Assembly: GCF_002105155.1 (NCBI RefSeq)
Contig: NW_019028985.1
Location: forward strand, 124,001-188,000
Length of the DNA stretch: 64,000 nt
DNA from: Lobosporangium transversale
Lineage: Eukaryota > Mortierellomycota > Mortierellomycetes > Mortierellales > Mortierellaceae
Reading direction: 5' to 3'
Below, one piece after another: positions 4,401-9,543 of the stretch (position 1 is the stretch's first letter; the number at the start of each line of letters is the position of its first letter). The notes under the pieces were generated by a model. That model had not been told where the DNA came from. It was given only the letters and a program-made list of their open reading frames with translations, and searched no databases. Both the position numbers and the translations under genes were made by a program.

Positions 4401-6451
4401 CCTCAAAATACAAAAAACTGTATGCGTGCAGCAATGAGGTCACTGGTTCGGCGAAATACTTCAATGGCGAGATGTTTACATATCTGATGGGATGAGGGGT
4501 TACGCCCCCCTTCAGCACAGATAAAAAAAAGAAAAAAAGAAAAAAAAAAGAGATGCTGCATGCTGCCCAAGAAGGTAATAAGTATTGGCGCCATGGCCAT
4601 TACGAGGGCACAGACAAAAATAAAACAAAAAAAACTCGACTAAACGTCAGGAGAGCTGCAGGTGAAGGGAAGGGGAAGGGTTAGTGAAAGGGCAGCATGC
4701 CGGTATATGTGGGAGGGTCTAATTGAGGGTGGCAACAAAAGAAGAGATAAGGCATGAGGGCGGGAGAAAGAGAAAGGATAATCGCTGAGGCCCCAGAAAA
4801 GGAAGAAAGAAAGAAAAAAAAAAAAAAAAAAAAAAAGAGAGAAAACTAAGCAAGGTCTAGGTATGGTCTAGAGGTAAGCACCAGCTAAATGCTTTGGGAT
4901 TTAAGAATCGATGTGCAAAATAACGCGATAAAGTTTGTTGTCAAGACGCCCAACCTTATCGGGTGCACGTTTATTCCAAATAGAGCAATAGTTCACGGAG
5001 TTTAGTCACAAGTGCATGTACTACAAACAATATAACAACCAGTGATCAATCTCTTCTCACGCTAAAGTGCAACGAATGTGGTTGTGAAAAGCTCTTATCC
5101 CTTCGTCCAAATTTGCCATTATAAATTGGCTTAAAATCCAGCAATTCATGGGCATTGTCATTGTCTTGAAATTTTATTTTGATGTCGAAATAAATGACCG
5201 AAACTAAATTGTCATGGAGCTATCCTGGCTTCTTTATTTGTGCAAATAAAAAACTCTTGAAGACTTTCGCATGACCCTAGCATCCGCTTGGGGGTCCATT
5301 GTATCGTTTATTTATTGACTAGTGTAATAGCAGTGATAATATTCGCCGCCGTAGTCGTAGTCTCGACTTGAAAGGAGGGCAATCTGAGTTGATTCATTCT
5401 ACCGCACCATAGAGCTTGACTAACTTGATCTTTTCCTGTACAGCCCCGGCAAGACTTGATTTGTCACATCGTTTGCTTGCTCGTCTTCTTGCGTTCCCTT
5501 GATGTATCTGGGTTGGTAAGCACTGCTAATAGAGTTTGTTGGGCCTGTTGAAACCAGAGGGAGCCACAGCAACATATCATACCCAAGGTGATACAAATAT
5601 CTCTGTTGGAGTGAGTGGTGAACTGTGTGTGGTTCAGATGTAGTGGACATAAACGGTGAAAGAATGCATCGAAAGGATGTGAGCGGTTATGAGAGCAAGG
5701 AAGAAGGGGTTGGTATGCCTGTTCAAGTCCTTGGCAAGAGAGCATGAGTAGCAGTTGTGATCAATGGTATAGTTTCTAGACCCTATCTTCCACGTACAGC
5801 ATTGCATTATTGTTGTTTTCAGACCTGGCACCAATAATGCGAGGTATTTCTTTTTCTGAGGGTTCCTTGTGTTAAACGGTCAGACAGAAAGCTTAGAAGA
5901 GATACAGACACAACGGTGAAAAAAATGTATGTGAGCAAACAGTTGCTGTGTTTATTTGTTGTCTGCACATGCCTTCTTTCATCGCGGGCTTTTTTTTTTA
6001 TTGTCGCAAATCTTGTTTCCTTTTTTGTTCGTCAATCACTGTGTGCACGAATAAGCAGCTGAAGCATCTCTTTGGTTTCTGTACATGTATAAACACATTT
6101 TACATCGCGAGGTCTTTTTTTGTTCAAAACACAAGCGTTTTCCATTGGTGCCTCCAAACAAACTTTATCTTGGCGGCCACTCCACAATCATCTCATGGTT
6201 ATAACAATCTCAAGGAAAGAAACTCAAACGCGTCGGTATTAATCTCGCTTCTGTATTTCTAGATGCATATGTTTTGGCGATTGGTATCAACTATCAAATT
6301 CACACATACACACACCAAACGACCGCCAAAAACCACCACTCTCGCTTCTGCTCTCCCTCCATCCACAAGGCGCTGCGCAATATCACCATTAACAAGGCAT
6401 CGTCCAGTAAGAAAGGGTGCTTAGATAGCTTTTACTTCAAGCAATAAGCGC
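4401..6451. other. Gene-poor stretch before the Fanzor-like locus
   Basis: I see no convincing gene, RNA gene or repeat array. The first part (to about 4840) is purine-rich with several A runs, including one at about 4807-4836. The rest is ordinary AT-rich sequence with frames shorter than about 105 codons and no family resemblance. The missing 5' part of the Fanzor-like gene would be expected near 5500-6450, but I could not find its PIN catalytic motifs there in any frame. Confidence 0.45.
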
Positions 6452-7871
6452 ATGCAACTACATCACTCCTATCTCCGCCATTGCTGCCGGGATCTGAGAG
6501 TCAACCTTCCGCACCGTAGACGGAAGTTTGGGGTTTACGATATAGACATCGTTATCCAAGCACTAAGACTGCCATCACACGCGCATCTGGTGTTATTCTG
6601 TGCCATCGCAGGCAATGACTACTCAAGGAACCTCGAGACGTTAGGCCCGGTTAATAATCTTCGATTAATTCGAAACGTTGCGTGGAACGAGAACTACAAT
6701 AAAATGCTTCGGGACTACCTAAGGAAAGCTAGTAAGGTGTTGGGAAGGAACGCAGCCTCTGAAGAAGGCCGTTTCAGAGTAGCTCTCCGCATTTTTTACT
6801 TCCGGCCATCAAACGTCGGCCCAAGCGTTACCATCGAACAATGAGTTCGATAACTTCAAGCAGCGTCTACTCAATGGAAAGGATCTTCGCCATAGAATGG
6901 CTCAGCAAAGGCAAGCGCCGCAGAACGTAAGAAAGCTCAAGCTATAGTTTTGACCTTGAAACCAAACGTCCCCAATACTAATCGTTAGTCCCTTTCTTGA
7001 CTAATGTAGAGACACACCATCATTCTATATAGCGAAAGGGTCACATAGGAGCCAGTTCCGGCCCATCTTTTCTGACAAGGCGAGCATATTGAATGGGCGC
7101 ACAGTTGATATCAGTAACTGCCGTCAGCACGATAGGCCGGGCCTTAAGCATCCACCACGTCGGAAAAAGGCAAAAAAGAAGCAACAGAAAAAACAAAAGC
7201 GGAAGCACAAAGGCAAGAAGCCTCACAGGGCTAAAAAAGAAGGTGCACCAATTAGGAACTTGAAGGATGCTACGAAGGTTGATCACAGCTACAGCAGTAA
7301 GCACCATATCAAGGCCTTAACAATTGAGTCCCTTAAGGCCTCCATGGCAAGGAAAGGCGGACTGGACGCAGATGAAAGGGATAGTATTGCAAACCAGATC
7401 CGAGAGGCAGTTGTTGTCCTCAACCGACTACGCCGCTATGCATACTGGGCGATTGCCTTGGACATTGAGAGGATCATGCGGCTACCAGGGGCAGCAAGGT
7501 CGAGGGAAAAGGCACTGGACGAGGTCTTGGATAGCTTCCGTCTCGCCACCCTTCTTTTAAGTGGTCAAGGTGGCCCCAATTCAGCTTACGCGAGGACAAA
7601 AAAACAAGGAAAGGCGGTAGAAACGCCCCATTACCTCCTCGCTTATGAACATTTCAAGGCCACCACTGAACTTTCCCCAATAAAGGAAATAGACATCACA
7701 TTGGGGGACGCGCAAGGCTTTGATCCCAAAAAGATCTCATTTCCAAGAGCGCCAGAGCTACTAATGGGCCAAGTACAGACATCATTAAGGCAGCACTACA
7801 GGAACGCAATGGTATAACCTTGTGTAGGGTATTTTCATGTATATTCTGCAATCAAATGCTCTTTATTCAGA

Positions 7872-7904
<33 letters not shown>

Positions 7905-9543
7905 CTAGTTTGATGTCGAGAAAACAAACGAAGATATGAGCGACATTGAGTTTTTTTTGCGGGAGAACAAAAAAGTGAAAAAATACTCAGACTTTCCTAC
8001 GTCCCCCTGGTCACCCGGGTATGTGTATCTGTCTGAACACGCCCTAGTTGACATCCTCTGGGCGAACGGAGATACCAGCAGCTGCTGGAGCGTATTCTGC
8101 CTCTCAACAATCCTTCCAAGACTGCAATGTTTGAGTGTGTACAGGGAACAAAAGGGGTTTTGATTCAGGCTCTCTTTTGTGACATTGGAGGCGATCGCAT
8201 GGTTCTTGGATATCGAGACAAAGTATCCCTGCAGTCACAGGACAAAGATCTAACTCGGTTCAAACTCAAAGGAACGATTTCTACCAACGGTCTAGTTCTG
8301 AATCTACTTGCCTATGACACAACCCAGACGAAGAGACAGCAGCAGTCTGACGTAGATGAAGAAGACCCCAGCCAAGAACTGGAGCTTTCTCAGGGATTTC
8401 TCAACACGACGTGTTCAAAGGCAGCCGGTGAAGACCTGACAGATGAAGACTATGCAAACATAAACTGGAAGAGGAGCTCCAAACTGCTTGAAAATGTTGA
8501 GCTCACATTCAACAAACCAGGGCGGTGCCCATCCGCAAACACCACAACTATCGTCGGATGCGATCCTGGTATTGTTAACGCCCTTACGTTTTCCTCCCTG
8601 GGTCCTCACAACCTTAACTTGCGGCAAACGGTAAAGGTGAGAAGCAGGTTCTTGTACCTCCCTGTCCTCCGCTTCAATCACCTGTTGAACAAAAGGAAGC
8701 GTGAAAAAGGAATGATTGAGGTTGAGAGCGCCATCCCTGTGTTTGGAAGGGATACGTACAATGAGTACTTTCAATGGATGAACGAGGAGTCCCAGACACA
8801 GATAGGATCAAAGAATTTGGATGTGCTTCAAGAGTTCTACGAGTCCAGATGGCACCTGAAAAAAAAAAATGGGCCCTACGAAAGGCTCAACGAGCTACGT
8901 TCGACTACGCGGTACAGCGAGTGTTGAAGATGCTCGGGGAAAAAGGAGTGCTTGTCGTCGGCCTAGGGTCCTTTGAAAGTAGTAAAGGAGTTCCCAGCAA
9001 GCACACTGCTATAACGAGACACCTTGTCACACAGGTATGGCTTTTTTTAAAAAAAGTAAGAAAAGCTGGAGCGCCATAGAACCCTTGCTAATAAACGACT
9101 GCCATTTGAAACGCTTAGGTCAAACCACGAGGACACTTCGCTGTAGGAGCGCACGAATTTTACACCAGCGCCCGCTGTCGCCGACCCCTCTGTGATAGCT
9201 TTTTAGAGACGGTGTACCCTCGCTCTAAATATTGCCGGGCATGTAAGGTATTCTTCGACCGTGACGCAGTAGGGGCGGAAAACATCGCAAGAATCGGTCT
9301 TGCTCAAATTGAGAGGCAAGAGAGGCCTGCAAAGTACAAGCCCACGGAAGAGTCGCCTGCTCCGGCTGCAAAGCGCACGACGCTAAACACAAGTATTTGG
9401 GTGCCGGCACACCCACAAAAAATTTGTAAGTTCTGTTTATTTTCGTCTCCTGTATCCTCTCTAATCTTTTGCCCTTGAATTTCTGGACTAACTTTAAAAA
9501 CCGTACAGATCAACAGATAATTAGAGTGGTTGATCCATACTAG
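6452..9543 (+). pseudogene. PIN/XPG-like tail fused to Fanzor (TnpB-like RuvC nuclease), frame-disrupted
   Basis: A colinear series of + strand blocks. (1) 6452-6841: an H3TH-like segment of a PIN/XPG-FEN fold, GVYDIDIVIQALRLPSHAHL then AGNDYSRNLETLG. (2) 7010-7811: a Lys/Arg-rich linker and helical region ending HYRNAM. (3) After intron 7812-7908 (poly-T, TTCTAG), a block starting FDVEKTNEDMSDIEFFL. (4) About 8060-9034: the RuvC core with IVGCDPGIVNA (Asp codon 8562-8564), EFYESRWHLKKK and VLVVGLGSFESSKG. (5) After intron 9035-9118, HEFYTSARCRRPLC...YCRAC, a C4 zinc ribbon, then FFDRDAVGAENIARIG (RuvC-III, Asp 9263-9265). A further intron, 9426-9508, allows a TAG stop at 9541-9543. This order matches Fanzor proteins, the eukaryotic relatives of TnpB RNA-guided nucleases. 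Frame breaks near 6790-6842, near 8060 and in the A11 run 8859-8869, and a missing PIN N-terminus, indicate a decaying copy. Family assignment is strong; activity is doubtful. Confidence 0.85.

Follow-up and report, generated by a model that had tools for sequence, protein, structure and literature searches.

TnpB and Fanzor proteins cut DNA at sites addressed by a right-end RNA. Rad2/XPG and FEN1 are host enzymes of repair or replication, and enzymes of the FEN/XPG type incise flaps and bubbles; to our knowledge, these host enzymes are not fused to RuvC nucleases. Here, we describe a locus of the fungus Lobosporangium transversale that carries the remains of both kinds of enzyme. It lies on the plus strand of a 64,000-nucleotide stretch of contig NW_019028985.1 (positions 124,001 to 188,000; C95:124001-188000 in our numbering), which we call the window, and the genome searched comprises 42.7 Mb in 127 contigs. 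We read the locus, with a probability of roughly 0.6, as the dead remnant of a mobile element, in whose fuller copies an XPG/Rad2/FEN1-type domain is encoded, in one protein, N-terminal to a Fanzor1-type module. The fusion architecture taken by itself, as predicted from the sequences, is highly probable.

The accessible sections of two earlier papers (PMC10711439, PMC3627910) give the signatures by which Fanzors are recognized: a DPG motif, an alternative Glu, the pattern [TS][TS]xx-C4-x(5,50)-RD, and a TDG motif that belongs to the WED domain (PMC10711439). The alternative Glu sits six residues ahead of the zinc ribbon and replaces the canonical Glu (PMC10711439). As far as these sections define them, the DPG, alternative Glu, and [TS][TS]xx-C4-RD signatures are all present in the window. 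Like Fanzor1 (SpuFz1, PDB 8gkh; PMC10432273), the protein described here has an alternative-Glu RuvC triad before a C4 ribbon, together with DPG, DRD, and a putative TDG-like motif, and like Fanzor1 it is carried by eukaryotic mobile elements. Unlike Fanzor1, for which the accessible sections of that paper mention no fused or additional domain, it has an XPG/FEN domain of about 345 amino acids and a Lys-rich linker at its N-terminal side. A further difference from Fanzor1 as described there is that no transposase was found in the 5′ open reading frames scanned in the L. transversale elements.

PpFz1 of Parasitella, an early-diverging fungus, is likewise a Fanzor1 protein that carries an additional domain specific to its lineage (PMC11423790). 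That domain, FRI, is tied there to cyclophilin binding rather than to a nuclease, and the main text of the paper, in its accessible part, never names XPG or flap. Ancestry of the RuvC core and TNB ribbon is shared with TnpB (IS200/IS605, IS607), which, unlike the present protein, is prokaryotic, mostly has the canonical Glu, and is paired with TnpA (PMC10711439, accessible sections). With Rad2/XPG and FEN1, the N-terminal domain shares an MG N-terminus and the acidic order D-D-E-D-D-D-D, with HMMER alignments placed around and after the last of these residues; it differs from them in that the similarity is weak and that it is joined to a RuvC module. Among the open-access papers searched (subscription papers and supplements lay outside this scope), none joins Fanzor with XPG, a PIN domain, or Mortierell, and those naming TnpB with XPG or flap endonuclease were judged irrelevant from their listing. 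Within that literature, the architecture that the original prediction had called new is apparently undescribed. We regard the protein as a real, apparently undescribed variant of Fanzor1 type with an XPG/FEN fusion, for which we infer a mechanism below.

An XPG-type domain and a Fanzor1-type module in one gene

The fuller copies of the element are about 5.8 kb long and hold one recognizable gene each. In three of them, which belong to family A (L049, L050, and L051), the first exon begins with MGLKSFFKLV (position 3206 in L049) and encodes an XPG-like domain of about 345 amino acids. A GT-AG intron joins this exon in frame to a Lys-rich exon 2, followed by a RuvC exon 3 and a ribbon exon 4. 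Family B (L052 to L054) shares this exon order and has introns at matching positions; it is 32% identical to family A over its XPG part and 39% over its RuvC part. Family C (on contig C13) has in-frame stops and reads MGIEGLWSFL..., EADVAIA, VSRDSDM, and SKNDY, then a Lys-rich linker, RuvC, and ribbon. The domain order is the same across the three divergent families of this genome. The claim with which we began, that an XPG/FEN-type domain and a Fanzor core are encoded as one gene, is thus upheld by in-frame GT-AG introns, by three families, and by continuous predicted proteins.

Relatives in other species retain the same order. A predicted protein of Mortierella sp. GBA43 (P0001, 998 amino acids) is 47% identical over 99% of a ribbon-less family A query; as annotated, it is without the zinc ribbon because its C-terminus diverges before it. 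Two predicted Mortierella alpina proteins (P0021, 1186 amino acids; P0024, 1121 amino acids) have the XPG domain first and the PF07282 ribbon last. All three predicted proteins run uninterrupted through the junction between XPG domain and linker, where the motif FY(V/I)...RP.F is common to the aligned sequences. Separate genes in intact relatives had been named as the outcome that would count against a fusion; the fuller relatives are each annotated as one gene, although these annotations are predictions.

Across the genome, 42 of the 69 PF07282 matches have a same-strand XPG match no more than 6 kb upstream, where about 0.5 would be expected from a rough density estimate. An XPG partner lies downstream in one case and on the other strand in two. 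The count took in all 69 ribbon matches, with 39 of 93 and 85 of 105 entries of two other lists; as far as checked, the remaining entries were more fragments of loci that already stood in the lists. These pairings are not independent events, since many of the matches are copies of one family. Each of the 15 near-complete XPG exons of family B is followed downstream by a ribbon. Over 15 family pairs, which are not independent of each other, the identities in the XPG and RuvC parts agree (Spearman 0.73, P = 0.002).

Among the 24 proteins, query included, that matched at E up to 1, the named relatives all belong to Mortierellomycota (Lobosporangium, Mortierella, and Dissophora). A protein search with alignment A1 gave three matches, and Lys-rich words probably filled its candidate list. 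Because the protein search needs shared words, it argues only weakly for absence outside Mortierellomycota. A viral origin was considered and rejected: 37 IMG/VR stretches fitted the RuvC pattern and none was confirmed, and P0024 was unmatched in phage records.

The C-terminal module carries the residues expected of a Fanzor nuclease. The RuvC-I segment reads DPG in all seven aligned rows (VGCDPG in the window), and the triad of RuvC D, alternative E, and D is invariant in 7 of 7. So is HE(F/Y)(F/Y)TSA-C, while the GLGSF segment is without a conserved Glu. The putative WED motif is TNG in the window, in family B, and in the full M. alpina proteins, and TDG in P0003, P0004, P0007, and family C. 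The window ribbon scores 25.0 and 25.7 bits against PF07282, just below the cut-off of 26.3, and another copy of the family passes at 27.9 bits; P0021, P0024, and most of the 69 genomic ribbon matches lie over the cut-off, P0003 falls just below it (25.7 bits), and P0001 has no match. A non-TnpB identity for the C-terminal block, the other outcome that would have counted against the fusion, was not what we found: a seven-row RuvC profile matched a single PDB entry at E up to 10, SpuFz1, with a marginal E of 0.009. None of four proteins reached the cut-off of the NCBIfam model guided_TnpB (NF040570; best 23.0 versus 100 bits, one protein unmatched).

The N-terminal domain likewise keeps putative catalytic residues. 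Six of the seven FEN-type acidic sites are invariant in five of five aligned sequences and the seventh is kept in four, on a FEN1 numbering and correspondence that we take to apply. All five also have the same MG N-terminus and ND site, and by eye the acidic residues are kept in family C too. The XPG fragment of the window matches yeast Rad2 weakly (E = 0.036), and in PDB sequence searches the full family A exon 1 matches Rad2 better (E = 1.3e-4), family B exon 1 matches XPG/ERCC5 (E = 5.4e-4), and a five-sequence XPG profile matches archaeal FEN-1 (E = 9.4e-6). The family C exon passes the Pfam XPG_I cut-off (25.9 versus 24.9 bits), and the NCBIfam archaeal flap endonuclease model scores P0024 at 15.3 bits, far under its cut-off.

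A further divergent XPG-like gene lies elsewhere in the genome (L059, C117:642140-645361; MGIVGLWPLL..., XPG_I 27.0 bits). It has no ribbon match within 6 kb downstream, the only search for a Fanzor partner made there.

The window copy and its mobile element

The window copy is a pseudogene. All of the motifs named in the original prediction are found on the plus strand in the order claimed: AGNDYSRNLETLG in the frame 6425-6844, the Lys-rich linker in the frame 7005-7817, VGCDPGIVN in 8052-8927, GLGSFESSKG in 8765-9079, and the C4 ribbon with FFDRDAVGAENI in 9119-9478. The extent first given, 6452-9543, has to be corrected to about 5094-9519. The XPG segment is present as described, but only the C-terminal part of the domain is left in the window. 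Its features are as follows.

5094..9519, plus strand: decayed family A copy of the XPG-Fanzor element; the left part aligns to the L049 element
5094..6504, plus strand: 5′ non-coding part of the element, from alignment to L049
6505, no strand: deletion junction, with about 1.3 kb gone relative to full copies, from comparison with L049
6505..6926, plus strand: exon 1 remnant, XPG/Rad2-like C-terminal part (GNDYSRNL), compared with L049, L050, and L051
6927..7009, plus strand: intron 1, GT-AG, which in relatives splices the XPG exon to the linker in frame (L049 and L052 sites)
7010..7811, plus strand: exon 2, Lys-rich linker and next segment
7812..7908, plus strand: intron 2, GT-AG, T-rich, from sequence and L049 comparison
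7909..9034, plus strand: exon 3, start of the Fanzor module and RuvC-I/-II, with frameshifts near 8070 and at 8859-8869
8562..8564, plus strand: RuvC-I Asp within VGCDPG, the DPG signature; unchanged in all seven rows
9035..9118, plus strand: intron 3, GT-AG, from sequence and L049 comparison
9119..9386, plus strand: exon 4, with alternative Glu (HEFYTSARC), C4 zinc ribbon, and RuvC-III DRD; PF07282 near cut-off
9155..9157, plus strand: alternative RuvC Glu, six residues upstream of the zinc ribbon, invariant in 7 of 7 rows
9257..9265, plus strand: RuvC-III DRD, invariant in 7 of 7 rows
9426..9508, plus strand: putative intron in the 3′ untranslated region, acceptor 11 nucleotides from the element end, from sequence; family B resembles it
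9509..9519, plus strand: right terminus of the element, from right-end comparison across copies

The left part of the window copy aligns to 26-307, 310-615, and 642-1382 of the left 2.2 kb of L049, and its left terminus at about 5094 was placed by eye. Relative to full copies, the deletion at 6505 took the 5′ leader and about 204 XPG codons, and with them six of the seven putative catalytic acidic residues of the domain. At least three frameshifts follow (around 6797 and 8070, and within the A-run 8859-8869), and the C-terminus is altered relative to full copies; the end of exon 4 at 9386 is estimated from the L049 frame, and the window frame continues to 9478. On this contig, the locus corresponds to the annotated protein P0020 (BCR41DRAFT_348054, partial, 426 amino acids), which covers the RuvC half alone. 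Family B has a similar donor and acceptor pair after its stop codon, like that at 9426-9508 in the window. Splicing out 9426-9508 would put the stop region directly against the terminus and flank.

At least 21 other near-full copies in the L. transversale genome are 93 to 97% identical to the window block, a lower bound since 40 of 139 candidates were scored. Thus, the window block is not a product of chance. The element is a repeat with sharp ends. Where both ends could be placed within one locus (five copies), its length is 4.1 to 5.8 kb. The right end is ACAGATCAA(A)CAGATA in 19 of the 20 copies read, with L034 ending 12 nucleotides earlier, and the flanks beyond it differ between copies, except for the pairs L042/L044 and L037/L041. 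A 21-base right-end pattern occurs at 38 genomic sites with up to two mismatches (reversed control, 0). Three full copies show a left end that is just as sharp, and a 25-base left-end pattern occurs at 21 sites with up to three mismatches (control, 0).

No transposase was recognizable: the 5′ regions of two copies yielded 17 open reading frames of at least 70 amino acids (11 from one family A copy, exon 1 left out, and 6 from one family B copy), none with a Pfam family over cut-off. Five family A copies with both flanks show no target-site duplication above 3 bases. Clear terminal inverted repeats were not found in family A, where TATC/GATA is the most that was seen by eye, and family B has imperfect inverted repeats (in L053, 793-1185 with 5608-5819). 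Among 19 left flanks from the 21 left-end sites, two pairs of which are duplicates, A occurs at −1 in 14 and T at −4 in 12, which is too weak to define a target-adjacent motif.

Some copies show traces of a more complex history. L037 (C14) and L041/L051 (C66) have unlike left flanks and at least 1.4 kb of common right flank at about 96.5% identity, as if downstream DNA had travelled with the element in L037 and L041 or a duplication had broken at the left end. A family A copy at L069 (C37:47393-47453) has a left flank that by eye resembles the right end of family B, so family A seems inserted into family B there. In the family B 5′ region, an antisense piece (L053:1535-1753, minus strand) looks by eye like the family A RuvC exon and has no Pfam match. 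Open reading frames resembling by eye the DDE transposase of a different element (L052:649-1312) lie upstream of the start of family B homology on C1.

The top 15 XPG exons of family B (14 complete, one from residue 20) are 97 to 100% identical to the query and have no stops. Their near-identity and freedom from stops suggest that family B has spread recently. In 13 copies compared with L049, the ratio of nonsynonymous to synonymous substitution (dN/dS) is 0.60 for XPG exon 1, 0.75 for linker exon 2, and 0.42 for RuvC exon 3. These values are below 1 but not strongly so, as expected for selection on an active lineage mixed with copy decay.

Right ends of family C-type elements

The right ends of family C and its relatives (L001, L002, L003, L005, and L008) share a terminal GTGCTGTAC(T/C)C. 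Five such ends of 85 to 138 nucleotides were aligned, and the four that were folded are weakly structured (z = −2.14, −0.62, −2.03, and −0.54). In the predicted folds of L005 and L002, the terminal ACTC/ACCC is paired with an upstream GAGT/GGGT, with one both-sided change; in those of L003 and L008, the end folds differently. By eye, a hairpin of the GCGTGTC type occurs in four of the five. The family C-type right end is a candidate guide-RNA scaffold, which we offer as a lead and not as proof. Its terminal 11-mer GTGCTGTACTC occurs at 35 genomic sites against 7 for the reversed control, so the loci read leave most of these sites unaccounted for.

Proposed mechanism and alternative explanations

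Several results weigh against the reading of the locus as an XPG-Fanzor element. On the Fanzor side, RuvC-I of family C reads DLG instead of DPG, the SpuFz1 match weakens to E = 0.46 with a full-length three-row profile (still as the sole match), and no XPG partner was detected for 27 of the 69 ribbons. On the XPG side, family A exon 1 has no Pfam match, the family B exon scores 13.9 bits against the XPG_I cut-off of 24.9, and P0024 scores 18.3 bits against the PF12813 (XPG_I_2) cut-off of 24.2. P0001 and P0021 have no XPG match in Pfam at E up to 0.1, and the full-length three-row profile matched no XPG/FEN chain in the PDB at E up to 10. The seventh acidic site is N in GBA43, and copy L051 is also without one XPG acidic residue. 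All six copies read through (L049 to L054) carry some defect. Finally, the omega-like guide RNA sought at the 3′ end gave no signal in the window copy: the last 180 nucleotides are no more stably folded than shuffled sequences (z = +1.18), and an Rfam scan of the window gave one match, far under its cut-off.

As the simplest reading, we propose a tentative mechanism, possible but short of an even chance. The Fanzor part, with a right-end RNA, would open and cut vacated or allelic empty sites. The XPG part would then incise the branched intermediate, which could be the displaced strand of an R-loop, a bubble, or a 5′ flap. Repair might then copy back the element, or copy it to the empty allele, favoring its retention or spread. 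Somewhat more doubtful is the broader idea of a two-nuclease, RNA-guided, single-protein system that would replace a transposase or home the element across Mortierellomycota, the Fanzor module addressing and cutting the site and the fused XPG/FEN domain processing the R-loop or flap.

Other divisions of labor between the two parts can be imagined. The XPG domain might itself be the mobilizing nuclease, the fusion excising or inserting the element while Fanzor finds the site and XPG cuts and trims the strands. The lack of any Pfam family over cut-off in all 17 of the 5′ reading frames (one copy each of families A and B), the sharp and recurrent element ends, and target-site duplications of at most 3 bases in five copies would fit such a role. 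We nevertheless consider it unlikely: a transposase encoded at another genomic locus may act in trans, the imperfect inverted repeats near the family B ends are as in transposase-moved elements, and we know of no XPG-family transposase, which counts against it. We also give a low probability to a non-catalytic XPG domain that binds DNA and helps Fanzor to find or open branched DNA. The weak similarity to active XPG enzymes and the single acidic residues lost in GBA43 and in L051 are in keeping with mere binding, but binding alone needs none of the six acidic residues, the MG N-terminus, or the ND site that are invariant in all five sequences, and by eye family C keeps these residues too.

Two further alternatives concern the fusion and the guide. 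One element could yield two separate proteins, through separate transcripts or post-translational cleavage, and the L. transversale gene models P0008 and P0020 do span the RuvC half alone. Yet intron 1 preserves the frame, the junction motif is shared, and the predictions in other species are continuous, which makes this the least probable of the alternatives. Alternatively, the C-terminal block could descend from TnpB as a derived RuvC nuclease no longer guided by RNA, given its strong divergence from known Fanzors (the marginal SpuFz1 match and 23.0 versus 100 bits for guided_TnpB) and the absence of a guide-RNA signal in family A. We find this improbable, since the roughly 490 amino acids that separate RuvC-I from the XPG part of P0001 leave room for WED and REC, the TDG/TNG motif and catalytic triad are retained, and the family C right end is weakly structured with one both-sided pair change. 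We retain a putatively RNA-guided Fanzor module joined to an XPG/FEN-type domain as the preferred reading.

The natural role of Fanzors is unclear, and a conserved fusion to a flap-type nuclease offers a direct clue, namely that R-loop or flap processing may take part in the retention or spread of the element. The fusion makes it testable whether an RNA-guided enzyme moves or homes an element without a transposase. XPG-Fanzor is also predicted to be a natural two-nuclease protein, and one that can now be examined.

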